DNA from: Agarophyton chilense
Taxonomy: Eukaryota; Rhodophyta; Florideophyceae; Gracilariales; Gracilariaceae
Reading direction: 5' to 3'
DNA length: 64,000 nt
Assembly (NCBI GenBank): GCA_030374765.1
Contig: JARGXX010000105.1
Span: 1,364,001-1,428,000 of the forward strand
Shown here in pieces: positions 41,689-60,157 of the stretch. The notes under the pieces were generated by a model. It searched no databases and was not told the DNA's origin. It was given only the letters and a program-made list of their open reading frames with translations. Numbering within the stretch: the first letter of the stretch is position 1; every line of letters starts with the position of its first letter. The translations under genes were made by a program, and so were the position numbers.

Positions 41689-42025
41689 TTGTAGTATCCG
41701 CTCTAACGGAGAGAACAGACACCTGCGACAGCGTTTGGACTGCCTATGGGTCGCTTAGAGCGAAGGAAAAGGGGTGGTAGAGCTACAACACCAGCGAGCT
41801 GGAAGTGGAGTGTAAGGCCACTACTCGCCAGCGAGGGTGAACAGAGCAACTGTAAAACGTTGATGGAACGTAGGTACGAGACGGCTCGTGAAGTGGTTGG
41901 GGGCTGACTATCTATTATAGCTCGTGCAGATCTCCGGTTAAGGAGTCCTAAGCGAGGAAGAGAATATTCATGATGCCCATGTTGTCTCCCTTCCTTGGAG
42001 TCGGCGCTCACATCTGGTACAATAT
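41689..42025 (-). repeat. Gypsy2 right LTR, first part (interrupted)
   Basis: It matches 31658-31995 of the left LTR and ends at AATAT, where the 18 kb transposon begins. The LTR continues at 60158. Confidence 0.9.
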
Positions 42026-42048
42026 CGTCTGTGTTCTCGGAATGCTAG
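42026..42048. repeat. Left terminal inverted repeat of the 18.1 kb transposon
   Basis: A 23-bp repeat matching the complement of 60135-60157 at 22 positions. GCTAG copies follow at 42044, 42057 and 42065 and near 42115. Confidence 0.85.
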
Positions 42049-42280
42049 ATAAGTGTGCTAGATAGCTAGTTTTGTAAATAAAAAGCCAAAAAATCTAAGA
42101 ATTTTACAGATTGCGCTAGTTCGGCACGTGAAAAAAATCTTTTTTGGAAATAAGAACTCCATGCATCTTAGTGTTTTGACCACTTAATGCAGTTTAATCT
42201 GCATTTGCAGTTTACTGGTAACTTTTGACCGCTCTAGGTGGAGATCCATACCAAGGCAGTCGTCAGTACCTTCTACCTCA

Positions 42281-42931
42281 TTAATGGCCCTTTTGCTTAC
42301 TAGGCTCCAGCGTTCCACCGGGAGGGTATTTGAGGTTGAAGAAGTCCACCAACGCATTCTCAACCTCGTCCACCTCCCCATTGCTCAAGTTCCTCACACC
42401 CGGCTGCCCCACCACACACACATTCCCACCCTTCTTCTCCACATCCTTAACAACCCTCCTCTTCTTCAGCCCACTCTATCCAACTCCTCCCCCTTTCCAT
42501 TCCTCTCTCCCCTTCTTCATCCCAGCCGGCTCCCCGCGTCTCCCTGGCGTCACCGGCGACCCTTTCGCTCTCCCCCTCTCCTCTCCCACCTCCTTAAACA
42601 CCTTCCGCACACCCCAAATCTCCCCCACCCCTTCCATGTGCACTTCCAACACCTTCACACGCCTCTGCAGTTCCTCATTCGCTCTCCACAGCTTCCCCAT
42701 CTCCAGCCCCTTGGGGATCCACTCGACATCGCCACGCCCGCGAAAGCTATCCACAAAAGCCACCGCAAGCGCAAGCGCACTCACCTTAGTGCGGCCAGTA
42801 GTACCCGCAGCCTCCCACACAGCACCCCCACTCGAAAATCCTCTCGCCCACCTCCGGCCTTTTATCTCTTTTTTTTGACCCGCTTTTCGCGCGCGCTCGC
42901 ACAATTTCAGTACCCTCGTACACCCCTGCAT
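42281..42931 (-). pseudogene. Small basic coiled-coil protein, one in-frame TAG
   Basis: A minus-strand frame of 217 codons is broken only by TAG at 42476-42478. Before it comes a coiled coil (MGKLWRANEELQRRVKVLEV). After it the frame continues as KKRRVVKDVEKKGGNVCVVG and NGEVDEVENALVDFFNLKYP to the TAA at 42281. The protein-like composition on both sides argues that it was one gene. No family was recognised. It may be functionally linked to the 53639-56294 protein, which also has a basic N-terminus and coiled coil, but no clear homology was seen. Confidence 0.5.
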
Positions 42932-43322
42932 CTACGCTCCGGATGCCCTTCACCCCACTCATTGCTCACTCACACACTCCCATCCCTATTCCTACACCTT
43001 CTATCATGTTCAGCGCTCCCTCACTACTCCCAATTTCATAGCCTTCTCATTTATAATAAATCACACTCATTCGTAACACAAACCGCCGATTACTCATAAG
43101 CCCTCTTTCCCGTTATGACTTCCATAACAACACACACTCCTACACTTTTAACACAATAAACACCATTCAATATCATAAATCTAACCTCCTTCCCAAAAAC
43201 CCCTAACACCCATTCCTCCACAACCATACTCCTTCTCTATTTAATCACATCTCCATACTCGCCACCCCCACCACTTCTTCAATTCCAAGGACACCGCACT
43301 CCAAACACCTTTCGCAATCAAC
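42932..43322. promoter_or_regulatory. Divergent intergenic region within the transposon
   Basis: A 390-bp A/C-rich stretch between the minus-strand coiled-coil gene and the plus-strand reductase-like gene. No motif is convincing. Confidence 0.35.
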
Positions 43323-44147
43323 ATGACCGACTCTCTCACTGCCATCCCTGGCACCTCCGACCCAGCCGTCATTGTCGGCAGAGGCCGAATCGGCACTTTG
43401 ATTCGAAACAACGGCACCCCACAAGATGCTTTTCTCTCAACTCAAGAATTCATCTCCGCGCAATACATCCCCGACGGCCCCATTTTCTTCTGCGGCAGAA
43501 ATCATTCACTCGAAGAGGTCATTCAATTCTGCCCTTCCTCCCGCAGAGAGGATCTGGTCTTCCTTCAGAACGGAAACATTCTCCCACTTCTTTCAACCTA
43601 TGGGCTCCAAAACTGCACCAAAGCCGTTCTCTTCCTCGCCGTCCCCTCCCTTAACGCACCCCCCGAGGACGGTGTCACCCTCCTCAGTCCCCATGGTCTC
43701 ACAACTGCCACCGGCAAATGGGCTCCCGTACTCGCCAATCGCCTCAGTACCGCAGGCCTCACTTGTCATGTTGTCGACCAGCCCTCCTTCTCTAAAGCTT
43801 ACTACGAAAACCTCGTATGGATATCAGCTTTTAATCTCGTCGGCTCCGCTTATGGCTTTATCATAATGCACGAAGTTGCAGTACAACACCGCACAGTCGT
43901 TTCAACCATAATGAAAGAGCTCCTCGCCATCGTCACATCCGAAACAGGAATAGCCTACAATACAACAGAAACACTCCAAAAACTTCTGGCCCACGGAAAA
44001 ACACTTACACAGTTCCCCACCTCGTTCTCAGACTTTGAGTTCCAGAACGTCTACTTCTACAACGTTTCTAACGCCCAAAAATCCATTGGAAACCGTGCCC
44101 CCGCCCCTTTCCATACAAACTTCTTGAACGTCCTCCTCAATGGGTAG
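43323..44147 (+). CDS. Ketopantoate-reductase-like NAD(P)-binding protein
   Basis: An intact 274-residue protein starting at the ATG 43323. A dinucleotide-binding loop VGRGRIGTLIRNNG lies near residue 18. REDLVFLQNGNILPLL (about 80-95) and the downstream SPHGLTTATGKWAPVLANRL match a plant/algal branch of the PanE/ApbA-like dehydrogenase fold, whose members have VGRGRVG and 'DLVFLQNG' motifs. The helix YYENLVWISAFNLVGSAYG corresponds to the conserved 'eKLiW..af.lvg' segment of the C-terminal domain, with Glu-Asn in place of the usual Lys. The substrate is unknown. It is one of the few unbroken genes of this transposon and looks like a captured host gene. Confidence 0.65.
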   Translation: MTDSLTAIPGTSDPAVIVGRGRIGTLIRNNGTPQDAFLSTQEFISAQYIPDGPIFFCGRNHSLEEVIQFCPSSRREDLVFLQNGNILPLLSTYGLQNCTKAVLFLAVPSLNAPPEDGVTLLSPHGLTTATGKWAPVLANRLSTAGLTCHVVDQPSFSKAYYENLVWISAFNLVGSAYGFIIMHEVAVQHRTVVSTIMKELLAIVTSETGIAYNTTETLQKLLAHGKTLTQFPTSFSDFEFQNVYFYNVSNAQKSIGNRAPAPFHTNFLNVLLNG

Positions 44148-44562
44148 TACTTCATTCATATACCCCTTCCAATAAAAACAAGTCCTCCTTTCTAAAGCAT
44201 ATGTCCATCTCCTTCGCTGCCTCGATAAAGACTGCTATCCGCACGACACCACGTCAGAATATATGAAACGATATTAAGAATTGCTTCGTACATCACAAAT
44301 CATCACTACAACCACTCTTCATAAATCTTCCAACTTTGCAATTAAGTCTGTACCCAATAACCGCTCCTACAGCCTATCAAATGTTTTCATTCATAACAAT
44401 TATTCATACTCCGCGACAGAGATACGGCAACAACCTAACAACTACTTTGATCACTACATACATATACCCACCGATGACCACCCTACTTCATTGCTCTCAA
44501 AATACTGTATCCAATCCCTCACAAATACCTTTCTACACAACACTCTCTTCTCCTCCTCAAGC

Positions 44563-44907
44563 ATGCAGCGCTACGAAGCACGTCCTTCCCTACCCCCTGG
44601 TTCTTCTGTCCAATGCTCAGCAGCTGTGGATATTCTTCCACAACGAACGGTTATCACGATCGACGAAGTCCTTCAAATCAAACTTCCAACCACCCAGAAT
44701 GTGGTCGAAGTCAGAGGGTTCCAGAATCATATCACCGACGAGCTCATGGACGAGATTCGTGACATTTGTACGACCACCAGGAGGCTCCCCACTCGCAACT
44801 CCCTACAGCAGCAAGATACTCTGAAACAACTGTTCAAAGAGCGGTATCATATCGTTACCTATGTGCAGCGTACAAGGAAGACTAGCAAACCGGAACGCCT
44901 TTACTAA
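44563..44907 (+). CDS. Small protein of unknown function
   Basis: A 114-residue protein from ATG 44563; the frame is open upstream to 44281 without another plausible start. It contains TVITIDEVLQIKLPTTQNVV and DELMDEIRDICTTTRRLPTR. No domain was recognised. It lies directly upstream of the membrane-protein gene, whose ATG begins two bases after this stop, so the two may be transcribed together. Confidence 0.45.
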   Translation: MQRYEARPSLPPGSSVQCSAAVDILPQRTVITIDEVLQIKLPTTQNVVEVRGFQNHITDELMDEIRDICTTTRRLPTRNSLQQQDTLKQLFKERYHIVTYVQRTRKTSKPERLY

Positions 44908-44908
44908 G

Positions 44909-45748
44909 ATGTTCAGTTAGCAAACACTCTTCACATCGACCTTAACGTTCACAATCACACTAACTACACTCTTCGGAGTTATAGACCAAGCTCTGCAATA
45001 TACGCTTCCATTCAGATTCAACTCTCTCCTTCGGTTCATTCTCATAACGCTATTGAGGTGTTCTATCCAAAGCCTGCTACACATTCTCATAATCGAAGGA
45101 GGCGTACAATGTATAAACGCGTTATACGGGTCTCTACAAACTACGCCGTTCAATCCAAACCAGCGATAAACCTGGAAGAAACGAGCCTTTTTGGTATTCG
45201 GGGCTCTACTCTTTACTCTACTCATCCCCCTCAACGCCATACTTTTCCTCGTTCACCGCTTCATTCCAGTTAGCGGTACCCTTTCATCAGACGTGAAGAC
45301 AAATTGTATCTCCTTCTCCACAGGAGGGGCCGCAGTTGGCGCTTTGGCATATCTTCTCCAGCTTGTTTCTATATTCTTCTTTCCAGAGTCATATCTTAAC
45401 ACAAAGTTCACAATGACCCCGGAACCACGGAGAACCTCTTTTATGAACCTCGTGCTTGGCGCCCTCTCCCACTCTTTTCAACAGGCTTTATTCATATCCA
45501 GTCCGGATGTAACCTTCCGACTACTCGGTATGAGGCTGTTGGCATGCACTTTCGCTGCACTCTCTTCAACCGCCTTCTCCACCTCTCGCATTGACGGACC
45601 TGGTGTTCCTATACTGCTTGGTAACACAGTGGATGTCGTAATCTTGATATCTTCGACAGTTGTCATTCACTATGAGAAAGTGAAAGCAAGTGCTACTCTC
45701 ACGCGTTTCAATCCAGTTGTTCAGGATTTTCTACTGAAAGACGACTGA
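44909..45748 (+). pseudogene. Multi-pass membrane protein with in-frame TAG and TAA
   Basis: A single 280-codon frame from ATG 44909 to TGA 45746. It is broken by TAG at codon 4 (44918-44920) and TAA at codon 87 (45167-45169). Hydrophobic segments occur on both sides: TLTFTITLTTLFGVI, FILITLLRCSIQSLLHILII, VFGALLFTLLIPLNAILFLV, GGAAVGALAYLLQLVSIFFF and ILLGNTVDVVILISSTVVIH, so at least five membrane spans. The continuous hydropathy across the stops is why I treat them as nonsense changes in one gene. No family was recognised. Confidence 0.55.
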
Positions 45749-45829
45749 TCACTATTACAAGAAAAGGGGACTACTCCACATATTACCTCAAATTGTACTC
45801 TTTATTGTTCAATAGGTAACAGATATTAT

Positions 45830-48800
45830 CTAGTCGTCGTCGTCATCCATTATCATACCGCCGTCTTCATAGTCTCTATCTGTGTTAGCCGAGTTGAGAC
45901 CCATCCCAGGTTCATCATCCTCTTCTTCATACTCCTCTTCCCCACTTTCAACAACTTCCATTTTATAATCTTCATCCAACTCCTCATCCTCATCTACCTG
46001 GAAGTCCTCATCATTACCCTTGTTGGAATCATCCTCTTCGAACTTAGGCCGAAATGCTGGTTGCCTATGCACTGCGTCTGGTAGCTTGTACCCATCCGGT
46101 ACCAAGTACATGTGATACCTCATGCAAACTTCCTTAACCAATGCATCCTCGTATCCAGCTCCAGCATGAAACACATCTCCTCTTCCAATAAAAATGGAGT
46201 ACGGCGGAATCCTGAACTTCCTCACTACCATCGTCCGAGACAGCCGTTTCAAGCTCCTGTCGTCGGGCACGTACATGTTATGTGACCTCTCACAAACCCA
46301 AAGCATAAACGAATTCGCTCCCGACGCCATCATGAAGAACCCTGGAACCTCTCCGACGTTCTTCTCGGCATCGGTCAGTCCTCGAAAGTCCGTATGTAAC
46401 ACCTGCCTTGGACAGCCCTCCGCCGTACACAGCACTCGCCCCCCTGTTTCAGGGGCATACATCCTCTTCTTCACCGACCTGTTCTTGCACAACCGAAGAG
46501 CGGCCGCAATCTGTCCAAACCTCGCATCCAACAATGCCCTTTTCCTCACCATTAAAACGTTGTTCTCGTCCCCCTCCACAGAATCCACAATCCCCACCTT
46601 CGTCGTAATGTACCGCCCAACTCCCTTCATTCTATCCCCAGCGTCTCTCTCCTCACCAGCGTTGATTATAGGGTCCCATTTCTTTCTATTCCCTTCAATC
46701 GTCAAGTCCGGCTGGTTCAAGAAATCGGTCTGGAAGAACTCTAGCAAAGTCCCAGTCACATCCCCATCGAATTTTACCCCCCTCTTCTTCGCCTCATCCG
46801 CCATCCCCTCGTCCGTGGCAAACTCTTCCAGCACACAAAATCCTTTCTCCATCAGCTCACTTCTCTTAGTCGCGAAGTACTCGCGGGCCAAGTCATCCCT
46901 CTCCATTGATGCCATCCATATCGCCTGCTCTTCATTCACAGGGTGGTTCTTCATCGGTAGAATCACCCCAAGAACCGGTTCTTTCGTGGAACCCAGTTCC
47001 TTGTGCCTGTTGTGAGCAGCACGCAAATAAACCGCATGCTGCACACTTTTCAAGTCTTCTACCCTCAAGCACTCCGCCCTGTGCTTGTTCCGTAGGTAAA
47101 TCATCTGCATCCAGAGGTGCTGATGCTTCACTCCATTTTCACCCGCCGGCCACTTGCTCGGAAGTGCATTCACCAAGTACACCCACGACATACCCGACCC
47201 CCCCGCATACGGTCCCGCCCTCTTCAGCCCCTTCGGAACACCCCCCGGATTATTGTCTTCGAAGCCACGCATTTGCACACCTTCCTCCTCTTCGTCCCCT
47301 ACAAATGCACCCTTCCCCCCGTCATCATCCAGTTCATCCTCACTCGATGAGAAAACATTGAGTACATGTTCCTTCAAGAAGCGCCTCAGCTCTTTCCTGC
47401 TCATTTTCTTGAACACATCCACCACGTCAGCCGGTATTTGAGCCGCAGATGAGCCCACCGTCTTTCTTCTCTTTCTCTTCTGCTTTATAGGCTGTTCATA
47501 CTCGCGTTCATCATCACCAATGACCACAGCGTTTCTCTTCCCCTTTCTCTGTCTAGGTTCCATCACCCTCTCACCCGCAGCATCCAGCCCGCGCTCAGTA
47601 CCTTTTCTAGTTTGTGTGATGCGTCTGGGAACCACGGTTTCCTGGTGGGGTACAGACTCCCCAGCACTAGACGAAGGAACATTCACAGAAGGTGGCACCT
47701 CCACCACATCCTTCTCCGCACTTGGGGACGCCAGACTCACTTTCAGACCGCCTTCAATCCGCCTTTGTGCGATTTTCATCCTCTTCGACACCAACCCCGG
47801 CCACAACCGCTTCGGACCACTGAGCTCCATCTTCGCCGTTTGCACGCAAAGGTACTCCCTTAAAGACACCTCGTTCTTTCCCATCACGATTGTGCTGTCT
47901 AGAACCTTCCTCGCCGTCAGATCCTTCTCCTTTCCCGCCCTTTCGCATAGTTGGAACATTCCTATGGCGCATTGGAAGAACTGCTTTCGCGTCTCCTGGA
48001 AACGTCCCATATTCCCCGTAGAACCCATCCTCACCCTCACATGTAGCTGCAAACAGCGGATTGCAAAACGGAATATTTCGTCTTCGAGTCCTAACAACAA
48101 GTCACTCGACACATGCGCAAGCGTTAGCACTGGACCCTCCTTGCATACGTTCTCAAAGAACTCCAGGAGACCTTCGCTCCTGACGAATTTCAACCCAAGA
48201 GTCGCATAGCCATTCAAGTGGCGCAAGCTGTAGATTCCTATAGCTTCGCTCGTCTTCAGCGCCCCAGCTATCCGTGTCGGAGTAAGGTCAGCCAACTTGG
48301 TTCTCTTATCGTCAATCAAGTTGCAAATGAAGGACACTGTCGAATGAACCTTGTCGGCGAAACTAATCTTCAACACTTTTGAACTCATTTCATTGAGTAC
48401 ATTACCAAGACCGAGCACTTCGTTCAGCGATAAAGGCTTCCGGTCCTTTCGTCTCCAAAGAACGACATCAAGAGACCGCACAATTTCCAACAACTTTCTC
48501 CCTTCAGAGGGATCATTCTTCAGATCTCGCAGAACCAAGACGCGGTGATGACCGTCAATGAGTATGACAGGCACCACTACCCTCCCATTGTGAAAAATTT
48601 CACTGAAATCTAATTCCATTCGCCCGACGATGGCAACAGCAATCGATCCTGCCGACGCAAGCCAGCCAAACGTTTTGCACTTTGCCATCGTCGCCGCCTT
48701 GTGTTCCGCATTCACACTTCTGACAGTCTTCTCGGGGATTTGTATGTCATCTATGTCCACAATCAAGCGGCACTGGTCATAGTCTGAAGCAGAGATCTTC

Positions 48801-49516
48801 TTTTCCACGAGAGTCCTATCCCCTTCCTGCAAAGGAACGGCATCGCCGTCATCGAACAACTCCAACTCGGGACCGGTGTGCGAATCCCCGCGTACATTCA
48901 CCGCTGACCCCACCTCCACAACATCTTCATCAGAATCATCCACTATCGTCACCCTCTTTTTCGGCTTGACGGGTTGCTTCATGGCCGGCGGCACTGTTGT
49001 TGGCTGTGCCCTCTTCCCCCTCAAAGGCGTAGCAGATTCCATCGAGGGGGTCGCGCTTTTGGGAGTCTCCGGCCGAGTAGGCCCTGGAGTCAGCACAGAG
49101 GAGACGCGTGTCATCATCGAGGTATCCCATGCGTATATACCTGCCGACCCCATATCCTTCAGCAACTCCGGCGGCTCCTCTGCTCCCTTGAAGAAGTACG
49201 GATACTTGTAGTTGATCCCCTCCTTAATTTCAGTCCTCCAGATGGCCACCAAGTCCTCTCTCGGCTTCGCAGACTCGTGCAACGAATGGCCATGCATCGC
49301 TCTGCAAAGCGCCTTCCCGGCCGCTCCACTGCCCCCAACACCTCTCAACTCCGCAGTGCCAACCATAGTACCCTTCTTTTTCCCTGTCCCATCCGCCAGG
49401 AACAACGCCACCCTATCCCCACCAGCCAGATTGCTTCCCGATGTAGCTTTTCGCGGAGTGGCGCGTGGAGTACCCCGCGGAGTACCCCTCGCTTTCGCTT
49501 TGCCTCGAGTCATCAT
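45830..49516 (-). CDS. ParB-like domain plus 2OG-Fe(II) dioxygenase-like protein, 1228 aa
   Basis: Intact from ATG 49516 to the stop at 45830. The N-terminus is a basic Arg/Thr/Pro tail (RGTPRGTPRATPRK). Residues about 250-330 look ParB-like: LIVDIDDIQIPEKTVRSVN, then VVVPVILIDGHHRVLVLRDL, with the DGHHR motif near 320. A nuclear-localisation-type stretch (IKQKRKRRKTVG) lies mid-protein. Residues about 1035-1140 fit a double-stranded beta-helix dioxygenase: CPRQVLHTDFRGL (HxD near 1041), FFMMASGANSFMLWV, GRGDVFHAGAGYED (distal His near 1117) and Arg near 1133. The C-terminus is very acidic. Related folds include TET/JBP 5-methylcytosine oxygenases and PhyH; the sequence cannot tell which. Beside a DNA methyltransferase, a role on DNA is plausible but inferred. 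It is transcribed divergently from that gene. Confidence 0.65.
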   Translation of the reverse strand: MMTRGKAKARGTPRGTPRATPRKATSGSNLAGGDRVALFLADGTGKKKGTMVGTAELRGVGGSGAAGKALCRAMHGHSLHESAKPREDLVAIWRTEIKEGINYKYPYFFKGAEEPPELLKDMGSAGIYAWDTSMMTRVSSVLTPGPTRPETPKSATPSMESATPLRGKRAQPTTVPPAMKQPVKPKKRVTIVDDSDEDVVEVGSAVNVRGDSHTGPELELFDDGDAVPLQEGDRTLVEKKISASDYDQCRLIVDIDDIQIPEKTVRSVNAEHKAATMAKCKTFGWLASAGSIAVAIVGRMELDFSEIFHNGRVVVPVILIDGHHRVLVLRDLKNDPSEGRKLLEIVRSLDVVLWRRKDRKPLSLNEVLGLGNVLNEMSSKVLKISFADKVHSTVSFICNLIDDKRTKLADLTPTRIAGALKTSEAIGIYSLRHLNGYATLGLKFVRSEGLLEFFENVCKEGPVLTLAHVSSDLLLGLEDEIFRFAIRCLQLHVRVRMGSTGNMGRFQETRKQFFQCAIGMFQLCERAGKEKDLTARKVLDSTIVMGKNEVSLREYLCVQTAKMELSGPKRLWPGLVSKRMKIAQRRIEGGLKVSLASPSAEKDVVEVPPSVNVPSSSAGESVPHQETVVPRRITQTRKGTERGLDAAGERVMEPRQRKGKRNAVVIGDDEREYEQPIKQKRKRRKTVGSSAAQIPADVVDVFKKMSRKELRRFLKEHVLNVFSSSEDELDDDGGKGAFVGDEEEEGVQMRGFEDNNPGGVPKGLKRAGPYAGGSGMSWVYLVNALPSKWPAGENGVKHQHLWMQMIYLRNKHRAECLRVEDLKSVQHAVYLRAAHNRHKELGSTKEPVLGVILPMKNHPVNEEQAIWMASMERDDLAREYFATKRSELMEKGFCVLEEFATDEGMADEAKKRGVKFDGDVTGTLLEFFQTDFLNQPDLTIEGNRKKWDPIINAGEERDAGDRMKGVGRYITTKVGIVDSVEGDENNVLMVRKRALLDARFGQIAAALRLCKNRSVKKRMYAPETGGRVLCTAEGCPRQVLHTDFRGLTDAEKNVGEVPGFFMMASGANSFMLWVCERSHNMYVPDDRSLKRLSRTMVVRKFRIPPYSIFIGRGDVFHAGAGYEDALVKEVCMRYHMYLVPDGYKLPDAVHRQPAFRPKFEEDDSNKGNDEDFQVDEDEELDEDYKMEVVESGEEEYEEEDDEPGMGLNSANTDRDYEDGGMIMDDDDD

Positions 49517-49668
49517 TTGAATCGGATCGTAGTCGATCGAGGTTGCAAATGGTCGCAGAGCGCTTTGAGCCTTTCATGGTATACAGACTAAGACGTATTA
49601 GATCGAGCTTCTTTGGTGGCGACTATCCGGAACACTCCCGAGAGCAGTTTGTTGCAATCAGCCTGAAC

Positions 49669-49713
49669 TACGTCCGCTTAGTTTCAACCTGAGGTACGTC
49701 TGCTTAGTTTCAA
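49669..49713. repeat. Short tandem repeat, two units of about 22 bp
   Basis: TACGTCCGCTTAGTTTCAAC and TACGTCTGCTTAGTTTCAAA follow each other upstream of the dioxygenase-like gene. They may be part of its promoter or of a transposase-binding region. Confidence 0.5.
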
Positions 49714-49805
49714 ACTCAAGAAACTCCTTGTCTCTTTCCATCACAAACACGCCTATTGGCTTGGTAAGCGACACAAGAAAATAAAATTAAAAAATTAAAA
49801 ATATC

Positions 49806-50010
49806 CTGACGGCCGACAGAGGTGCGCTCCGACTTCATCGATGGTCCCGATGAAGTCCGCGTGCACCTCTGTCGGCCGACAGAGTGCACCGTGTACACCT
49901 CAGCGTTCCAAAAATTACAAAATTATATGTATTATGTCGGCCGACAGAGGTGCGCGGGGACTTCATCGGGACCCCCGATGAAGTCGGAGCGCACCTCTGA
50001 CGGCCGACAG
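49806..50010. repeat. Fourfold inverted repeat forming two long hairpins
   Basis: A module of about 35 bp (GGCCGACAGAGGTGCGC... ...GACTTCATCG) occurs four times in alternating orientation. Copies 1 and 2 form one hairpin (49807-49882) and copies 3 and 4 another (49935-50010), each with a loop of only a few bases around ATGGTCC or GGACC. The outermost copies match each other best (GGTGCGCTCCGACTTCATCG is exact), so the whole block is also one nested inverted repeat. It sits between the divergent starts at 49516 and 50183. Each 14-bp end (CTGTCGGCCGACAG) is itself palindromic. Confidence 0.85.
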
Positions 50011-50182
50011 AATGCAACCAGGATAGCTGCGAAGTCGTTCCGCAACAACCGTTCTTCTGTGCGCGCTCCTCAACCGTACTCACAATCTTTCCGTACCCAC
50101 CCGCACTCACCCGCACCCGCTGCTCTCTTTCACTCAGGCTCTCGTGACGACCGCCCGTGAGGTTGTTTGACCATGTACATAA

Positions 50183-52440
50183 ATGGCTCCAGAACCCACG
50201 AGAAGTTCTTCATCGCTTGCGGCAGACACCTTCGAAATGGGTAAACTGTTTGGTACGGGGGATGAAGTTATCAGGGCGTGTCTGGATTTGCATGATCGTT
50301 ACGCATTAACGAGGCGGGAGGAAGATGAGCCGCGAAAAGTGGGGCACACTGCATTCATCGATTTCACAATTGCCAATCGCCACATCCTACCGGAGACCGC
50401 GAAGTTTTTTATACTCTCCTAGGTCCCGACCACACCAATTACACAGAAGATGAGCTCCGAGTTGTAGGAATGAGGGGCTCGAACTGTCAGAATTATTTCT
50501 CGGCGAGGTTGCTGGATATAAGGGATGGGGACCCAGATAGGCGCGTGAGGGTCTTTTGGAACGCGTACGAGGCGGTGGAGTTCAAGGGCATCCCGAAGAA
50601 TGTTACTTTGACAGAGTTCTTCAAAGGTCTGGATACAACCCGAAAGAATGCGAGCAAAAGCCGGGCTCCATTCGCGACCGACTTCCCGACATTGTTCCAG
50701 AGGTTGCTGTTCCTCATTTGTATTCAGTCGGTCTCTATGGAGAAGAGAAGAGTCTCCCGTAAGCGACGAAAGCGGGACAGATCCTACGATACGCTATTTT
50801 CGAAGGTGGCGATTTATGACAAACCAGTAGCTCAGCGTGTGCGCTTTGGTGTGCAGCTCGTCAATAACGCGTGGGACAGCTTCGCCCAGTATTTGGGATT
50901 CCCTGGCGTGGAATTCATGGTTTTGCCCTTTATCCATCTATGATATTCTGATATGCAGTTCCAGGCAATCGGAAACAGAAGGGATGGGTTCTCTCACAAG
51001 GACATGGCCCAACGACTCCTTCCTGGTAGAAACCGTACTTTATTGGAGGAGGATGTCGTCCCATGGGCGTGGAACCTGCCGGGGTACGTTGACACTCCAC
51101 TTCGTATGTTGGCCAAAGAGTTTCTCGCTGACCTGCACAAAGTGGTGGTGAATGAGCAGCTTTACTCTATATCAGCTCCGGAAAGATGGGACGTTCTAAA
51201 ACCGTTTACATACACTTTGCCTAGAGTGTTTGCGGAGAGATTCGACTGCTTCTCGAACTCTCTTATCTCTACCATCTCGGATTACATATCGCCACTAAAG
51301 CTGCGAGGGAGTGTGGAGGTGGAAGTGGTGGCTGCGACAAAGGCGGAACCTACTATGGTTATGGAAGAAGACGAGATAGAAGTTGTACCCCCCGAGAAAG
51401 ATTCGGAGGCTCCGGCGGTGGAGGGTGGAGAGGGAGTGGAGGGTGGGACCGGGAATGAGGAAGAGAACATGGGTGTTGGTCAGCATTCTTCCACAGCTGG
51501 ACCAAGGTCGGTCGAATCTGAGTCGGTGGATATTCTGCCGCCTCACGACCTTACCTCTCTGGATGATATAATGTCTATCCAAAAGTGCGAGTCGGAGATG
51601 GATAAGCACTGTCGAATGTACAATTGTACTTTCGAGAACCTGGTGGAGATTGAAGAGACATTGCGCAGCAATGGGGTCTCTCCGATAGGGAAAGTGCAGT
51701 TGGTTCTCACGGACCCGCCGTATAATATACGTGCGAAGAAGAACAGGAAAAACAGCTGGTACGACGTTCTTAACCGGCAAGAAATGGTCAAGACGGCGAA
51801 GCTCATCTCTAAACTTCTGCGTCCGGGAGGGCATTTCGTTATATTATGCGCGATTGAGCAGGTGAACGAATGGAAAGAAGTGTTGGGTCGAATCTGTGCA
51901 AAGGATGAGAATGGACAGAAGAGCAGGTCGTTTGTCGTGGACACGGTCCAGCTGCACTTCATTCGCTCTTAAGGCAATCCGATGCGTAATCCCGGACGTA
52001 GTTCGAGCTCCCTGTTTCCCGGAACAGAGTACGCCATTCATGGAGTTCGCAGCGGGATGTACTACGCCGAACAACATGGCATGGTGAACTATGAGAACTT
52101 CAGCTATGTACCTTCGCGATATCCGGGTTACCATAGCGTGATTGACCAAGTGCCTCCCATGTCGAATGGTGAAACACTTCTATGGAGAAGGAAGAATGCC
52201 AAAGGAGCAGTTACGTATCAGAAAGTGCGGGCGGAACAGAAGTCACGCGCTTTGCTGAAGGAGCTCATCAGCAGGTTTTCTCAGCCGGGAGACATAGTGG
52301 TGGACCTCTTCGCCGGAACATTTTCAACGGCCATGGCATGCATGGAACTGGAAAAGCACCGTCAGTTTCTAGGGTGTGAGCCAGATCCGCAGTGCTTTGC
52401 TCATGCGAAGCACGCCGCTACAGTGAAATTGGCGTCATGA
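50183..52440 (+). pseudogene. Beta-class DNA (N6-adenine/N4-cytosine) methyltransferase, disrupted
   Basis: Starting at ATG 50183, the first 73 codons end in a -1 frameshift at AAGTTTTTTATA (50402-50413). The main frame then runs to 52440, broken by TGA at 50941-50943 and TAA at 51970-51972 but with sense coding continuing in frame each time. The catalytic motif IV is VLTDPPYNIRAKK (near 51705-51740). Motif I follows it at the C-terminus: GDIVVDLFAGTFSTAMACME (near 52291-52350). This IV-before-I order defines beta-class amino-methyltransferases. Their DPPY/SPPY motif acts on exocyclic amino groups, so the product would be 6mA or 4mC rather than 5mC. About 440 residues of unknown N-terminal sequence precede the domain. 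The gene is upstream of the SET gene and its stop abuts the next ATG. Confidence 0.8.
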
Positions 52441-53314
52441 ATGCGGAACAACGAGACGGACATTCATATAACGCAAGATGTTCGGAACGCTGTGACTCGA
52501 GTGACATGCTTGTTTCCGGACGTCGTCATAAAGCGTTCGAAGTCCTGGAAAACACCTACCGGATTTCCCGAGCATCAGATGTTTCCACCCCATATCCGTG
52601 GATTTTCTCTCCTCCATGTGGCAGGATAAGTATATACCGGAGATTGGGCGACGGCAGGCGCTGTATGAGTGGCCAAGAAGATTTCAATGAAAGATGTCAC
52701 TATTGGATTGGAATGCTATTCTGGCAGTGGAGGCGACAGTATGTGGTTGTCGGATTGCAAAGTCGACGATAAGGCACCCGAATGCTGGAGTTGGTGTGTA
52801 CACAACACGCCGGGTGATACAAGGTGAGACTGTTTGTTACTTTTACGGGACTTTGGTGTACCATAATCTTTCAAAGCGGAAGGAAGTTCATAAGGCATAC
52901 GGAGGGGGGCTATTGAAAGCGACTGCTGATCGTTTTCGGCAGTACGCGATGGAGATAAGCGTCCGAGGGGAATTGTTTCACAAGCTACCAGGAAGAATTA
53001 GTGGGGTCTCTCTTATTCCGGTGTGGATTGTCCCTGCTCCATTTTGCTTGGGGGGAACAATTAACGACCCCAAATATGAGGAAGGGGATAGGGACAGGGA
53101 TGCGGTTGAAGACGGGTTAATGAGACGCCGAACTGCAAATGTTCGGGTCATCAGAACTCCGGAGACGGGGCGGACCCCATTTCAGTTGAGAGACTATAGA
53201 TTGCTTTCTGTGCAAGCAATTCGAGATATAGAAATATTAGAGGAGCTGTTCGCGGATTATGGGACAGAGTATATCTGGAGCATGAATAACACGCCAGTCA
53301 TAGTAATCGATTAA
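52441..53314 (+). pseudogene. SET-domain protein methyltransferase, disrupted upstream
   Basis: The intact part from ATG 52694 (206 codons) contains the SET fold: HPNAGVGVYTTRRVIQGETV, then CYFYGTLVY, GGTINDPK...NVRVI (the usual 'NHs...N' site is degenerate) and AIRDIEILEELFADYG (the 'i..gEEL..dYg' motif). The same frame continues upstream as SSMWQDKYIPEIGRRQALYE and WPRRFQ up to TGA at 52688, so the real protein started earlier. A frame starting at 52441 (MRNNETDIHITQDV) probably supplied the N-terminus through a frameshift near 52605. SET enzymes methylate lysines, often on histones; the substrate here is unknown. Confidence 0.65.
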
Positions 53315-53638
53315 AAGTGCATCGCTTTTGTTACTTTACTTCATTGTAGTGTACCAGATATTGTGGGCTTTTACTATGTTTGTCGCTACATATAACGTCA
53401 AAGCGTGACGTAGTACATATGCTAAAGGAAATTCATGTACACCGAAGGAGAATACTTTCCCAATATCTGGTGCGTTCGAGCGCATATTTAAAATATCTGA
53501 AAAGTTTGGGGGTTTTCTGAGAAAACGAAAAGGGTGGAGGTATATTTTTGGAAGCAGAATGATTCGAAGCTTCTCTCCCATCCATCGCATTGCAACGCGT
53601 GGAAGACCATACCACGATCGCTCTCTCTCTCTTCAACC
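53315..53638. promoter_or_regulatory. Intergenic upstream of coiled-coil gene
   Basis: AT-rich 320 bp with no coding signal. A CT-rich run (ctctctctctctt) lies just before ATG 53639. Confidence 0.35.
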
Positions 53639-56294
53639 ATGGCTCCGAAGCGCAAATCGAGAAGCGAGAACACTAGCGGGCGCGGTACAAAATCACGGCG
53701 GCATGGAGGGGATGCGGAGGGCGGAAGGGACAAGGGGCGTAGGCTCCAGGGCGCGAGTGGAGAGAAGGGAGGCGTGCGCCTGAGAGGTAGATCAAGGCAA
53801 GATGGTGGGGAAGGAGAGGCGAGTGGGGGCAAAAGGAAAGGCTGTTCGCGCAAAGGAGACGGTGACGGAGGAGAGTGCGGAGCAAATCACGTCGCGTACG
53901 GAGCAAATCAATTCGCCTACGGGAGAGATGGTGCAGAGCGGCGATGGAAAACGGGATGGCGTGCGAAGCAACCGCACGCGTGTACCTAGAAGTGGATTGC
54001 GGGGGAGGGCGAGCAGAGCTCCAGGGAGGACAAGGAGAGGGGATGCATCCGAGCGGACTCTAAGTGCTGTACTCACGTCTTCAGCTGATGTGGAGCCGGT
54101 AAATCCATGCTCTGCACCTGAAGGAGGTGAAGAGATTCCGAATGAGAGGACGAAGGGGCGTAAGGAGGGAGAGAGAATGATCGGAGAACGTGGATCCCGC
54201 CTCAGAGGCGTTGAAGAAGCAGGGGCATCGTTTACGGGTATGAGGGAAGAGGACGGTGATGATGAGATACAGAAAGGGAGAATAGAGAGTAGCCGTGGTG
54301 GGGAGGGTAGAATAGGTGGACCCAGTAGTGGTCTAATCGCGGGCGCAAGAGTCGTTCGAGAGAGAACAGAAGGAGAGAGTGTTGGAGTTACCGCGGGGGA
54401 ACAGGCGGAAAGATGGGAGGGGGCGAACTTGGATTACGTGGAAGAAAGGAGAGAGCGTGCAAGGGAAAGAATGGGGAGTGTTCGAGTTACAGGAAGAAGA
54501 GCGATAGACGAAAGGGAAAGCAGAGAAGTGCATGTAAGTGAGGGGGGGAGAAGGGGGTTTGCTGGAGGGAGAACACGTGGTTCAGGGGAAAAAGGCGATG
54601 GAAGAGCAGCAGTTCTTTCTCATCAGGGAGAAGATGTCGAGCGTTTGCCACTGAGGAGAGGGGTGGGTTTGGGAGTTGAAGGGTTTGAGGTGAACGCAAG
54701 GCGAAGGACGCCGGAAGGTATGCGAGTAAGGAGAAACATTGTATTCACAAGGAATAATGATAACGGGGAGAATGCGAATTTAAATGTCGTGGAGAACGCC
54801 GTCCGTATAGTGGAAGATGAAGCAAATGATGATGACATAGGTTTGTTGCCGCGGTCGATGCTAATTGAGAAGATGAATGTGTTGAAGGGACAAATGGGAC
54901 GTATGAAGGAAGACAGCTACAGTGTGATGGTGAGTTTGAAAATGACCCAAACGGAGCTGGATCGGGCGAGGGAGGAAATGAAGCAGCAGAATGTGCTGAT
55001 TGAGAGTTTGAGGGAGGCGTTGAAAAGTAGAATCGCTGGGGAAGGGAGGGGGGAGGGAGGCGTGACGCGGCGACGAAAGTATGACATTGGAGTGCAGGAA
55101 TGCTTTTATGGATTTGCACGTCGTGTGTATGATAGGATTCTTCATTGTGCAAAACTGGAGGCATCGGAACTTTGCTTCGACACCGAGAATGTGGGTCGAA
55201 GCTGGAAGAATAGAAGTGAGGCGGTTGGGGAGAGTAGGGAGGAAAGTATGTTTGTGGTGGGAGAGAAGGAAATGGTTCCGAGATGTCCAATTGAGGTTGC
55301 ATATGAGATGAGACCGTATACGCCGTCGACAGAGGGCGGGAGCCATTTGTTGTTGAAGCACGTGGTAGAGACTGAGTTAATGGGAGAGAAATGGGAGTCG
55401 ATAAAGGAAGCGGGGAGGAGAGAGGAGTGCGTGGAAAATGTAAGTGCGGATCGGTGCTTGAGACAGAGGATGAAGCAAGCATTGAGCGATGTGGTTGGGG
55501 TGCGGAAGCGAGCAGCGCGTGATAAGCTGTTTTCCATGCTTGGATATGATTTGATCGCGAAACGAGCTAAGGTGACTGAAGGGACGGAGCTTTGGGCGGA
55601 GTTGAAGAAGCAGATTGAGGAGGCGCAGGAGAAGTTGATGGGGTCGGGGGAGGATGGGAGAGGTAAGCTGTGTGCGTGGAGAACGAGTGCGATTGAAGAT
55701 ATTACTTATTCTGGATCGAAGGTGTCTGAGAACTTGGAGGACTTTGGTGAGGCAGATATGCATTTTCGAAATCAGGTGTCGTTGAAAGTGGTGGAGGAGT
55801 TTATGGGCTACGCGGTAGAGAGTCACAGAAATGGAGAAAGGCAGTATGTGGATGGGACGGTGATGCATCTTGCGCGACTTGATGCATGGATTGGATGTGT
55901 GGTGACCACGATGGATAGAGACGTTGGGCGGGGAGGCCAAAGGCAACTTTTGTTCTCGACGCTGTTTGGGAGGTTTCTGCCACTGGCTGTTGAGGACATA
56001 TTGAGGGTTGCCTGGAACATGGTGAAGGATGAGTATGCTGAGGAGTTTGAGAATGATGGATTCTGTGGAGGGAATCGTAGAGATGTGAGTGGAAATAAGG
56101 AGAGAATCGCGACGGTTGGGCTATGGATACCGTCGAGAGAGAAAATCTATCTGGCGATAAGGGAGGAGTTTTTCATGGAGAATCTCACGAGAAGACTTGG
56201 AGCGGTGTTAGATTGCTATATAGCGTCATGTGGACCAGAAGAACCACGGTTCAAGCGCTTAGCGTTGGGGAGTAGGCAAGGAGTGGGAGAGTGA
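53639..56294 (+). pseudogene. Basic coiled-coil protein of about 880 aa, N-terminal frame change
   Basis: The best start is ATG 53639 in a good context (ACCATGG, then MAPKRKSRSENTSGRGTKSR), which leaves frame within about 60 codons. The long frame runs from 53802 to 56294 (830 codons). If translation begins at 53802 the gene is intact. The first 330 residues are Arg/Gly/Glu-rich and probably disordered. A coiled coil lies near residues 350-415 (LIEKMNVLKGQMGRMKEDSY then QTELDRAREEMKQQNVLIES). The C-terminal 400 residues are globular and mostly helical, with no recognised family. It is convergent with the transposase and is adjacent to it, so it could be an accessory transposition factor; that is inference. 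Confidence 0.55.
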
Positions 56295-56381
56295 TAAGGT
56301 ACGGGGGGATAAGGGGGTAAGGAGGTGGAGCAAGATGGGGGTCGGCTATGGAAGAAAAGCAGCGGTGACTATTTTATTGGA
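56295..56381. terminator. Convergent 3' ends, 87 bp
   Basis: The short gap between the coiled-coil gene and the transposase gene must hold both transcript ends. No AATAAA is present. Confidence 0.3.
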
Positions 56382-59300
56382 TCATGTGCCTTGGGAGGTA
56401 TTATTATGGGTGCCACCCAGTGGTGGTGTTGTGCCACCAGTGGTGGTGTTGGAGAAGTAGGGCTTGGCAGTTGGGTCTCGGTAGAATCTGTTGAGGTAAA
56501 ATCGATGGAAGCGCCAGTGCAATCGAGGGGTGAAAGGGGGTGCGGGGTAGTTTTGGCGAAGTACATGAACGGGGCCGAGAATGGAAGAGGATGGTACGAG
56601 GCCGAACCAGGGGGAGACGTTGTCGGAGTTGGAATTGTTTGAGATAGGAAGGGGGTGGGCGGTGTGGTTTTGTTCGTCGTCTGTTGCCCATCGGAGGCAG
56701 ATGCAATTGAGAGAGACATCGACTTGATCCTGGGGTGGAACGAGTTCGAGGAACTGAACGAAGGCGAACTCGTTATGAGTGGAAGGGGAAGAAGGGGTGG
56801 TGAAGCGAAGAAGAGAGTTGAGCTTGCAGACCCAGGCGGTGGGAGTGGGGTTGGAGAAGCTGGAACCGGCAACGAGGATGTGGGAGAACTTTGGGGTTTT
56901 AGAGGGACCGAAGGAGGGAGCAGCGAAGATACGTTGAATGAGTGGGAGAGGGGGATCTTTGACGGCGAGCTCGTTTCGATCGGCGATGTAGTCGTCTAGG
57001 GTGGGGTGAAGCCGCCGACGACGTATGCGGAATTGACGAATGTGAGACGGGTTTGGCGGAGAGTGGGGGAGTCCTGGTTGAGAGCTAGTGTTTCGAGTGT
57101 GAGTGTGACGAAGGAGGGGAGTGCGAGGGTTCCAATCTGTGAGATGATGGCGATAGTGTCTGGGGAGAAGAGGTCCTGAAGGGAAGAGATTGTTGAGTGG
57201 GGGTTTGCTCGAAGGAATTTGTGAGCGGTGATGAGATCGGAAAAGGAGGTGTGCTTGCCATCACGGACGAAACCTGGTTTGCGGGCTTGGAAGGGAGGAG
57301 GAGGGGCATGGGAGGATGAGGTGACGGAAGGATCAGCGGAGAGAGAAATCCAATTGTTGACGGCATCGGAGCGTTCGATGGCACGGATGGTTTCGTTGTG
57401 CGCGGTGGGTCTGCGCTTGGAGGTTCGGGAGTAATGTGCTTTGAAGAGGGTATGGGCTTGTTCGAAGATGCCTGCATCGTTGAAGTGGAGACCCCCAAAG
57501 CGTCGAATGTCGTCTACGATGTGATCGAGGAGGTGGAATTTGAGGGTGCCAAGGTTGGAGGTATGGTATGGACCGAGAACATCGACAGCTCTGTGCTTGA
57601 AGGAATGGATTTGGGAGGCGAGTTTGGCAAGACGAGAAGTGGTCCATTCGGGGACGGAGTTGTAGCACATGGAGGTGAGGAGGAGGTCTGTGTACTTGGA
57701 GAAGACGGTTGTGATGGGAGCGGAATTGGCTTCGTCACAGCAGCGGTCGAAGAAGGCGCCGATGAAGGGGAAGACCATGTCGAGGGCGCGGTAGTCTTTT
57801 GCTTCTAGCATGCCGCGGACGCCGTCAGTTGTGAAGAAGCCGTTGAGGGACTGCCCGCTTTCGGAAGTAGAGAAGTCGATGTGGAGGCCGGTAGCTGGGG
57901 AATGATTTTCGATGGCGGTGAGGATGAAGTTGGAGTGCTTGAGGATGGAGGTGCGGACGGAGTGGAAGGAACGGCGGGAGTTTGTGGAGCTGATGGTGGT
58001 GAAGAGGTGTTCTGATCTGAGACGTTCGATGGCGGCGAGCTTGATGAGTTTGGAAACGCCGAGGTGGAAGTTGTGGAGGGGTTCGAAGGGGAAGATGTTG
58101 TATGGGGTGAGGAGGGGGGTGATGTTGAAAAGGGGGTAAGACTCGAAGAGGGAGGGGTATTTTGCGAGGGAGAGGGAGTGGAGTGCTTGGAGAGCTTGTT
58201 CCTTGAAGTTGCGCGAGACTCTTGGCTTGCGGGCGAGGAGAGCTGCTTCGGAGTCCTTGAGGAGGGAGAAGTGTTTGTTGCGGGCTGCAAGGGTGAGGGG
58301 AAGAGATCGAGGGGGATGGGCGTGAGAGTGTTGGTGGAGTTGTGAGCGAGGGACAGAGCATCTGTGGCAGGGGTGCTGGGGGCGGGTGCCGTGGGAGATG
58401 GCGAGAATATCCTTTGCCTCGGGAATGTCTGCGCAGTAGCTGGCGATGATGGGGTGGCATTGACGAAGAACGCCGTCTGCGTCGCGGAAGGGGAAACCGG
58501 GGAGGGCGGAAGAGAAGAGAGGTTGAAGGAGGGAGGAGATGGTCTGCTGTATGAGTTCCATTTTTGTTTGGCGGGGGATGGAGGAGGAATGAGTGATGAT
58601 ATCTGCATCTGGAGAAGGAGTGATTGGGGTGAAGGAGGTGGGAAGATAGCCGAGGAGTGTGAGATTGTCGGAGATGCATTTGCGGCGAAAGGAGTCGGAG
58701 AAGTTGAGAAGGGTGATGTGGAGGGGGTAGGAGGTGATGGAAGAAGATTTGAGAGAGGTAGAGGACTTGTCGGAGTAGATTTGGACGAGGCCGATGAAGG
58801 AGTCGATACCGGTGGAGTGAGGGAGATGCCAGACGATGTTATCTTTTGTGGACTGCATGATGGCGGTCTTGAGTGCGGGGACGACTTTTGAGCCGAGGGT
58901 GGCTGCCATGGGGTGTGCGAAGGCGGGGGAGCCGGAGGCGGATGTTTGGGAGATGGGGTGGAAAAAGGTGTTCTTGAAGTGTGCGAGGGCGAGCTGTTGT
59001 TTGAGGACATGGATTGCGTCTTTCTGGAAGAGGGTTGCGGAGAAGCGTTTGTGGGGATCAAAGATGGTGGAGGGGGCGAAACCAATGGAACTGATTCTCT
59101 GGTGCAAGAGGTCTGCCTGGAGCTCGAGACATTGCTTTGCGGAGGAGACTGAGTTCCGGAATGTTGATTCGGAGAAGTGGGGATCATTAAGAAGAGTGAT
59201 GAGTTCGTCAGCCTTTCGTTCCCCAAGCTTGGAGGCGATGGAGGAGATGTAGAGGACCATGTTCTCCAGGTGGGGGTTGTCGGGGGGGGGAGTGGAAGGA

Positions 59301-59644
59301 GGGAGGGGGGAGAGAGCGAGAGAGGAGGGGGAACCGAGAGGGGCAGTGGCGACGTGGATGGCGTCCTGGGTGTGGAGGGAGAGAGAGAGCTGGTCTTGGA
59401 GATAGGAGTCATGGTGTGCGAGAGGGACGTTGTCGGAAGGGCAATGTGAGGGAGGAGGATGAGGGGGGAGTTGTGAGGTGGACTTGTGGCGTTTTGTGCG
59501 GGGGGGGAAGTTGGGTTCATTTCCGCCAGGAGAGAGGAAGCGCTTGTTGGCGGAGAGGCGATGAGGGCACCTTCTCTGGTGCCGCTGGAGGGCGGGGATT
59601 TCTCGGGCGAAGAAGGAGCAACCGTTGAAGCAGCAGGAAGGCAT
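56382..59644 (-). pseudogene. Plavaka-like transposase (CACTA superfamily), one C-terminal frameshift
   Basis: From ATG 59644 a frame of 882 codons runs to TAG 56996-56998. In the -1 frame the protein continues (TLDDYIADRNELAVKDPPLP ... PTAWVCKLNSLLRFTTP) for about 205 codons to TGA 56382. The shift lies in ACCCCACCCTAG at about 56995-57005. The N-terminus has a C2H2-like finger (CCFNGCSFFAREIPALQRHQ then RRCPHR). The core matches Plavaka transposases in order: IYSDKSSTSLKSSSITSYPL then LLNFSDSFRRKCISDNLTLL and GYLP; DADGVLRQCHPIIASYCADI then PEAKDIL and PCHRCSVPR; PFEPLHNFHLGVSKLIK; and LKFHLLDHIVDDIRRFGG with FEQAHTLFKAHYSRTSKRR. These correspond to the RNase H-like nuclease with its zinc-binding insert. 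It is the only transposase in the element. Confidence 0.75.
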
Positions 59645-60134
59645 GGTGGGTGGAGGAGAGGTGGTGGGAAAGAAGTTGGTAGGGCGCGTAGACGGAGAGA
59701 GAGTATGGCGCACACAGGGCACGTGACAGGGGAGGGCGGTGGAGAATAATATAGAATGGGAGGCACGTGAGGTCTGCCAGGTCGGGCTGCGATTCTATTG
59801 CGATTGATATGGATGGTACTAAATGTTCAATTTCTATTTTGAGGTCCATTTTGGGACCGGTTGTTTGTACTAATCTGTCAATCTAGAGCGCACAAAGATT
59901 GAATCTGCTCCTGCACCACTTCTCTACTTTTACCTTTAAACTGCGGCGACAGAAAGATTCACGATAGTTTTCTCCATCAAAACTAGAAAAACTGCAGATA
60001 TGTGCTAGTTTTCCTTCCCATACAAACTAGCACTAATGAACGAATGAAAATATTTTCGGAAATTAACACCTCCAAATTTGGATAAATTCACGGGTTTTTC
60101 GGTCATTTCAATTCGTCCTTTTTTGACCACTGAA
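59645..60134. other. Right subterminal region of the 18.1 kb transposon
   Basis: It holds the transposase promoter and repeated CTAG-containing motifs: AACTAGAAAAAC near 59983, GTGCTAGTTTTCC near 60002, AAACTAGCACTAATG near 60022 and GAACTAGCATTCC at 60133. No other coding sequence was seen. Confidence 0.55.
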
Positions 60135-60157
60135 CTAGCATTCCGAGAACACTGACG
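60135..60157. repeat. Right terminal inverted repeat of the 18.1 kb transposon
   Basis: CTAGCATTCCGAGAACACTG followed by ACG, the complement of the left end with one mismatch. Confidence 0.85.

Follow-up and report, generated by a model that had tools for sequence, protein, structure and literature searches.

A giant Plavaka-type transposon in the red alga Agarophyton chilense carries a divergent methyltransferase-SET and ParB-like gene pair with palindromes between the genes

Giant Plavaka elements are reportedly named in the abstract of the study of the red alga Bostrychia moritziana by Petroll et al. 2025. Here we analyze a locus of another red alga, Agarophyton chilense (assembly GCA_030374765.1, contig JARGXX010000105.1, positions 1,364,001 to 1,428,000; this whole stretch of 64,000 nucleotides is referred to as the window), in which positions 42026 to 60157 are occupied by a copy of a multicopy, cut-and-paste Plavaka transposon of 18-19 kb. 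The transposon carries a cassette of two divergent genes with a palindrome array between them: one gene encodes a DNA methyltransferase (MTase) fused to a SET domain, and the other encodes a ParB-like protein with a putative 2-oxoglutarate (2OG) dioxygenase-like C-terminus. Accessory proteins with ParB plus N4/N6-MTase on algal transposons, as well as giant EnSpm-type elements of red algae with accessory genes, are already in print, in a paper that credits them to Iyer 2011 and Petroll 2025 (PMC12477816).

The giant EnSpm/Plavaka elements of Bostrychia are likewise of the CACTA type, come from a red alga and carry several accessory genes; their ParB/MTase-type accessory proteins, credited to Petroll 2025 or Iyer 2011, are known here through the citing paper (PMC12477816). 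Sola1-1_Ec32 of Ectocarpus also combines a transposon-borne ParB-like domain with an N4/N6 DNA methyltransferase on the strand opposite to the transposase, but joins both in one protein of 1,104 amino acids (aa) and has a transposase of another superfamily (PMC12477816), whereas the Agarophyton element joins its MTase to SET and encodes the ParB-like domain in a separate, divergent gene. The TET-carrying transposons of fungi, including PlavakaB of Agaricus and Gymnopus, share the Plavaka affiliation, a DNA-modification gene, a target-site duplication of 2-3 bp and a proposed anti-silencing role; however, the termini differ, the Agarophyton element has no TET/JBP match, and no MTase or SET cargo is described for the fungal elements in the parts of the source consulted (PMC12730594). 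Bdelloid rotifers, which lack C5-methyltransferases, likewise tie an N6_N4_Mtase to histone methylation and transposons, but their amino-MTase, N4CMT, is encoded by the host and joined to a chromodomain, with the SETDB1 variants as separate proteins, whereas the Agarophyton MTase and SET share one frame on a transposon (PMC8885841). The giant repeats of Amoebidium are similar in comprising Plavaka-flanked, intron-poor gene clusters of up to 50 kb, with matches in red algae and dinoflagellates; their named cargo, in contrast, consists of tyrosine recombinases, and the consulted text does not mention MTase-SET or ParB (PMC11244446). The new combination proposed in the initial annotation is thus new in part: the fusion of MTase to SET, its occurrence in unrelated elements and the paired palindromes were not found in the literature searched, a search of limited coverage, whereas ParB and MTase on algal transposons and giant red-algal elements had been reported.

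The main features of the element are as follows.

42026..60157, unstranded: whole Plavaka-type element, 18,132 bp, termini CGTC...GACG
42026..42055, plus strand: left terminal inverted repeat (inverted-pair search; the left end recurs in the genome)
60128..60157, minus strand: right terminal inverted repeat (inverted-pair search and copy comparison)
42024..42025, unstranded: target duplication, left copy, 2 bp (AT); matching dinucleotide in 15/21 copies
60158..60159, unstranded: target duplication, right copy, 2 bp (AT), from comparison of copies
45833..49573, minus strand: ParB-like and putative 2OG-dioxygenase-like protein, 1,247 aa, frame open in the window copy
49783..50016, unstranded: two palindromes, at 49806-49882 and 49928-50016, between the divergent genes; five other copies have 4 to 8
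50183..53311, plus strand: MTase-SET fusion gene, 1,043 aa when intact; in the window, frame changes near 50407 and at 52565-52605, stops TGA at 50941 and TAA at 51970
51694..52407, plus strand: beta-class N6_N4 DNA methyltransferase domain (DPPY then F.GT), PF01555 E = 2.5e-17, one internal stop
52691..53311, plus strand: SET-domain part of the fusion, PF00856 E = 8.7e-5
56385..59794, minus strand: Plavaka transposase, 1,137 aa when intact; in the window, frame change near 57002

The transposase matches the Plavaka profile PF18759 (E = 8.7e-23; 81.5 bits, cut-off 26.3), in agreement with the initial annotation, and it is by the transposase that the element is assigned to Plavaka; the termini CGTC..GACG fit neither of the fungal subgroups, PlavakaA (TGT..ACA) or PlavakaB (CATCA..TGATG) (PMC12730594). 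The genome holds at least 123 Plavaka matches (the best 123 of 235 candidates), a lower bound because every scored match exceeds the cut-off. Six full copies, each of 18.1-18.9 kb, share 97.9-99.6% identity, so that movement of the element was probably recent; the giant Plavaka family is real and, judged from these copies, probably recently active. Copies with the same ends and cargo are present elsewhere in the genome: an MTase match lies 3-7.5 kb upstream, on the opposite strand, at 55 of the 123 Plavaka matches, compared to 0/123 on the mirror side.

The 18.1-kb unit with matching terminal inverted repeats and a short target duplication, as initially annotated, was recovered. An inverted pair of 34 nt (42022-42055 / 60128-60161), 91% complementary, lies at the ends of the element, and the 179-nt left end recurs with 94-100% identity at at least 40 places in the genome (the best 40 of 126 candidates). 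Among 21 copies, the flanking dinucleotides match in 15 (AT, TT, TA, TG, CA, AA) and differ in 3 (C2:1246890, C13 and C80, where C denotes a contig of the assembly); in the other 3 (C98, C16, C123), the right end lies outside the stretch read. Fourteen of the 15 matches were called by script, whereas that of the C95 copy, in which the right terminus is mutated, was judged by eye; the C12 and C2 copies share flanks and hence are not independent. A 4-bp duplication (ATAT around the window copy) was rejected, given that comparison of copies gives 2 bp.

In intact copies, the matches to N6_N4_Mtase and SET lie in a single open frame of about 1,000-1,043 aa. The SET domain that had been annotated next to the MTase is present (PF00856, 23.3 bits in the window piece and 25.9 bits in the contig-end version described below, cut-off 22.4), but as part of one fused frame, and the alternative of two adjacent genes was rejected. 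By motif order, DPPY before F.GT, the MTase is a beta-class amino-DNA-methyltransferase, as initially annotated; DPP[YF] was found in 19/20 sequences and D..GT in 20/20. A protein search with the C10 copy recovered 21 relatives among 4767 candidates from public contigs (best 49% identical), and a Pfam scan of 19 of these relatives (E 0.01) detected N6_N4_Mtase in 19, SET in 14 and a chromodomain in none. Compared to PDB, the family profile matches DpnA (3.2e-15) and CcrM (9.8e-9), and the SET domain of KMT2C only at 0.004. The canonical SET motifs are NH..(P)N and EE..DYG; an EELFADYG-type end is present in the C10 copy and in several relatives.

The best phage match of the MTase is an annotated adenine methyltransferase (28% identical), and the 12 matches listed among 30 phage records are all confined to residues 487-772 of the relative P0001. 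A virus- or prokaryote-borne MTase-SET was considered and dropped: IMG/VR yielded MTase-domain matches only (11 loci of 239 stretches), and in a prokaryote genome collection, searched with one pattern, none of 49 MTase-domain loci of 358 stretches extended to SET. Separately, adjoining MTase and SET matches with stops, or with low SET identity (33-42%), occur at C73:257595-259183, C88:1593552-1594911, C116:750565-752033 and C10:55455-56540, and are probably relics of older MTase-SET genes.

All nine members of the ParB-like family contain the DGxHR and H-x-D-F motifs, and GRGDxxHAG and RYHxYxxP are present in 7 of the 8 members that reach that far. The identity of the protein as ParB-like is likely, the profile phrog_1033 (ParB) matching 3/9 members (best E = 9.7e-5) and the Pfam ParB family none of them. 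The HxD...H...R pattern of the C-terminus and its spacing, which we take to fit 2OG enzymes, make this part putatively dioxygenase-like by motif. No match to Tet_JBP or another 2OG family of Pfam was obtained in the nine members at a limit of E 10, a scan in which the HMMER filters discard most matches above E 0.1, and assignment to TET/JBP or another named dioxygenase was dropped. The ParB/dioxygenase-like protein of the initial annotation is thus retained in its ParB-like half, weakly, whereas the other half lacks a profile match. In protein searches, the window protein found no relative among 7993 scored, whereas the diverged contig-end copy found 7; none of 33 pattern-matched stretches of IMG/VR contained a relative, the sole phage match had E 3 (query P0022) and the sole plasmid match E 10 (query P0026). 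Within the genome, a divergent MTase partner accompanies 33 of the 37 ParB-like copies of the Plavaka type that were scored.

In ParB-parS partition, ParB acts at clustered palindromic parS sites near its gene. The intergenic region of the window copy contains palindromes of 77 and 89 bp, with the core CTGTCGGCCGACAG at the arms; a perfect 16-bp version, TCTGTCGGCCGACAGA, was found in 5/6 copies, and the C2 copy has only a 14-bp form. A 16-nt perfect palindrome is expected by chance 0.02 times per 1.2 kb. The arm CTGTCGGCCGACAGAGG has 174 exact matches in the genome and its reversed control 0. Of the places listed, the 99 on contigs C1-C73 were used: a Plavaka, MTase, ParB-like or left-end match is found no more than 20 kb from 97 of them, and 34 of these 97 lie upstream of a scored ParB-like gene at a distance of up to 2 kb. 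On the same contigs, a palindrome was found at 18/26 Plavaka copies with cargo, and one is retained at a distance of up to 20 kb, always on the upstream side, by 16/38 cargo-less copies (up to 10 kb in 14 of them). In the element at contig ends, the hairpin is another one, containing ATTGCCTGCAGGCAAT, and its units, spaced by about 773 bp, flank for example the ParB-like gene of C31 on both sides; the corresponding pattern TTATTGCCTGCAGGCAATCCC occurs 171 times in the genome (control 0), and all 13 contigs among the listed places also have an MTase or contig-end ParB-like match. Palindrome arrays thus adjoin the ParB-like gene in both elements, and we read them as candidate operator or parS-like sites. 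As with KorB, a DGxHR-motif ParB-like protein adjoins clustered palindromes at its own promoter region (PMC11790492); unlike ParB/KorB, the Agarophyton protein resides on a eukaryotic transposon and is fused to a dioxygenase-like domain, and the palindromes are candidate sites.

The MTase-SET/ParB-like cassette is modular: a diverged version is carried by an unrelated element, here called the contig-end element. Its MTase-SET is a 1,141-aa frame with both domains above cut-off (N6_N4_Mtase 2.2e-16, SET 1.3e-5), and is 35% identical over 1,063 aa to that of the Plavaka element. In the C96 copy, this gene is divergent from a 1,316-aa ParB-like homologue (36% over 1,242 aa compared to that of the window), and C103 has a shorter ParB-like frame; downstream of the MTase-SET, the C103 copy encodes a 1,880-aa protein with an OrsD domain and a RecQ/BLM-type helicase (PDB best E = 2.7e-20). 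Altogether, 17 distinct divergent pairs of the contig-end type were identified; 8 of 34 contig-end ParB-like stretches have no MTase partner within 12 kb. The Plavaka transposase, the 923-930-aa protein and the two small frames of the Plavaka element (see below) gave no tblastn match at 1e-3 in ten contig-end loci. In the phylogenetic tree, the Plavaka MTase-SET groups with P0001 and the contig-end version with P0002, both with support of 100/100, so that the two versions probably split before the alga and the sources of P0001 and P0002 diverged. P0002 and its ParB-like counterpart P0022 each list 4 contigs, the longest of 20,528 bases, which suggests that both lie on one contig. Telomere-like repeats were detected at 2 of the 11 contig ends checked, both of C95 (65 CCCTAAA in the first 600 bases and 6 TTTAGGG in the last 601); a subtelomeric location is therefore directly shown at C95 only. 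On C21 (638520-669782), ParB-like pieces and hairpin arms form tandem repeats of about 5 kb on one contig arm; several of these pieces have no MTase partner within 12 kb.

The remaining features comprise the other genes of the element and the retrotransposon that it interrupts.

43245..44144, plus strand: 300-aa frame, no Pfam match, open likewise in copies C86 and C117
45170..45745, plus strand: 192-aa remnant of a 275-aa membrane-protein-like frame of other copies (Pfam RSN1_TM E = 0.73 only)
53501..56291, plus strand: 923-930-aa protein, no Pfam match above cut-off; in the window, 836 aa open, frame change near 53826-53854
41692..42025, unstranded: interrupted long terminal repeat (LTR) of a Gypsy-like element, left part, resuming at 60158 (LTR comparison)
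31660..32120, unstranded: other LTR of the same Gypsy-like element, with the uninterrupted target near 31990-31999 (LTR comparison)

The 923-930-aa protein has 55 scored genome matches, 88-100% identical, two of these matches being fragments of the C75 copy. In the window copy, the ParB-like gene is the only one of the four large genes with an open frame; with the MTase-SET, transposase and 923-930-aa genes broken, this copy is probably not autonomous, and intact copies exist elsewhere in the genome. The insertion into a Gypsy LTR, as annotated initially, was borne out. The LTR pair (31660-31959 / 41692-41991) is 93% identical, and the interrupted retrotransposon is considered Gypsy-like because the frames between the LTRs (34500-36887) contain an integrase (rve E = 2.1e-13, H2C2 1.7e-14) and a chromodomain-like match just below cut-off (E = 2.7e-5). 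The other LTR, which begins near 31.6 kb of the window, is continuous across the point matching the insertion and so provides an empty site; moreover, the joined flanks have uninterrupted matches, 93-95% identical, at at least 40 genome places (the best 40 of 892 candidates), and in the 6 such matches inspected, the length across the junction equals that of the query. The window copy (42024-42025) and the copy at C95:907325 occupy the same position of apparently the same repeat, at the center of a near-palindromic target (CTGGTACACTATATACTGTGTACCAG in empty sites), and the C12 and C2 copies likewise share flanks. A Copia-type gag frame (PF14223, E = 9e-10) adjoins the Gypsy-like element at 28105-29001 of the window (minus strand).

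The host, which in the initial annotation looked like a red alga, fits that assignment, given that phycobiliprotein genes are present in the 79.8-Mb assembly, with 14/15 matches on the plastid-type contig C39. Some of these genes are found at duplicate positions of C39 (38445/224129, 38796/224480), which suggests a repeated or over-long plastid assembly. A search for C5-DNA-methylase (PF00145) produced no match and no candidate in the assembly, where introns or gaps could conceal a gene, and was positive in 10/14 controls.

We tentatively favor, at somewhat under an even chance, the interpretation of the cassette as an element-borne chromatin-marking system that would set a state of its own, limiting or timing transposition and avoiding host silencing. 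Under this interpretation, the ParB-like protein would bind the palindromes as parS- or operator-like sites, would regulate the divergent promoters and perhaps would spread along the element; the MTase-SET would methylate both the DNA (an amino-methyl mark, at N6 of adenine or N4 of cytosine) and histone lysines in the chromatin of the element; and the dioxygenase-like part might adjust or remove the mark. The self-set chromatin state could act through self-silencing or anti-silencing either way. A more far-reaching version, which we regard as unlikely as a whole, envisages a self-contained epigenetic identity system in which a bifunctional enzyme would write DNA amino-methyl and histone marks, while the ParB-like protein would read element-specific palindromes and load or spread the machinery on element chromatin only; different elements would have orthogonal versions with their own palindromes, and the parS-like addressing code would be swapped as a cassette.

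Several observations weigh against the favored interpretation. As many as 68 of the 123 Plavaka matches have no upstream MTase, so that the cassette is not needed in cis. In six recent copies, the ratio of nonsynonymous to synonymous substitution rates (dN/dS) is only weakly below 1: the transposase gives 0.66 (p = 0.043), the ParB-like gene 0.68 (p = 0.04) and MTase-SET 0.93 (p = 0.44). Two antisense frames that lie within the ParB-like gene likewise give p = 0.02-0.05; this comparison is too weak to decide, and function is argued here from conservation between deep relatives rather than from recent copies. In the MTase, motif I is unusual (F.GTF in 17/20) and one relative (P0016) has YPPY; in the SET part, GxG was not found in 5/20 sequences, the NH motif reads ND (IND), and the profile scores of two relatives fall below the cut-off of 22.4 bits (P0001, 20.5; P0010, 19.7). 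The unrelated PyrR model reaches E = 3.1e-4 in one member of the ParB-like family, a noise level similar to the ParB match, for which reason the ParB identity is likely, not proven; P0027 is the one relative of 8 that reaches the distal motif region yet lacks the motif. The whole window contains ten 14-nt perfect palindromes compared to about 4 expected, so that palindromes as such are not rare here. Finally, a review reports cytosine-methylation changes in another red alga, Gracilariopsis, which speaks against C5 methylation being absent from red algae in general; it also reports a DNMT3-like gene in Cyanidioschyzon (PMC9861306).

That the cassette is passenger cargo, hitch-hiking on Plavaka without benefit after a Pack-type capture or as an early nested mobile element, appears rather unlikely. 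The absence of an upstream MTase at most Plavaka matches is compatible with such a passenger: 49 matches have no MTase, ParB-like gene or left end within 20 kb among scored matches and 15 keep the left end with no scored cargo within 20 kb, counts that may be too high because the ParB-like and left-end figures are the best 37 of 333 and the best 40 of 126 candidates. Stops within 25 of the 37 scored ParB-like copies and the weak dN/dS signal point the same way, as might several inverted pairs of 18-28 nt (75-89% complementary) that span the cassette genes and look like chance in skewed coding sequence; no long inverted pair bounds the cassette within the element, however, and the divergent pair, with conserved motifs, is also kept in relatives from public contigs and, at 35-36% identity, in a second element unrelated to the first. 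Still less probable is a benefit to the host, whereby the alga would use MTase-SET as a transposon-silencing writer, like bdelloid N4CMT, and the genes would have been amplified on transposons. The lack of a PF00145 match in the assembly and the precedent of N4CMT in a lineage without C5-methyltransferases (PMC8885841) are consistent with this, but 59 of the 116 MTase matches in the genome lie within 20 kb of Plavaka, and among the other 57, some of which belong to the contig-end family or are short or broken fragments and which were not inspected one by one, no single-copy host MTase gene was recognised.

Two further alternatives, each concerning one component of the favored chromatin-marking system, are plausible though less likely than not. 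The palindromes could, instead of being protein sites, be hairpins at which recombination or deletion is frequent, or remnants of promoters, and mark deletion endpoints in cargo-less copies. Their number, which differs among copies (2 to 8), their retention 1-3 kb from the transposase match in some cargo-less copies and the above excess of perfect palindromes in the window are compatible with this possibility. Against it, the ParB-like gene adjoins palindromes in both of two unrelated elements; the two palindrome families are unrelated to each other and have perfect palindromes of 14-16 bp at their hairpin arms. A comparable, appreciable chance attaches to the C-terminal domain of the ParB-like protein having another fold, with the HxD...H...R residues present by chance: Pfam, NCBIfam, PHROGs and PDB sequence profiles all lack a match to a 2OG dioxygenase, but H-x-D-F is conserved in every family member and the two distal motifs in all but one of those long enough.

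The transposon thus places both writer domains in a single frame, in a genome without a detected C5-DNA-methylase, whereas bdelloids link both methylations through separate host proteins. If active, the cassette would allow direct tests of how a mobile element establishes the state of its own chromatin, of whether N6-methyladenine or N4-methylcytosine genuinely serves as an epigenetic mark in red algae, and of whether addressing of the ParB/parS type operates in eukaryotic chromatin.

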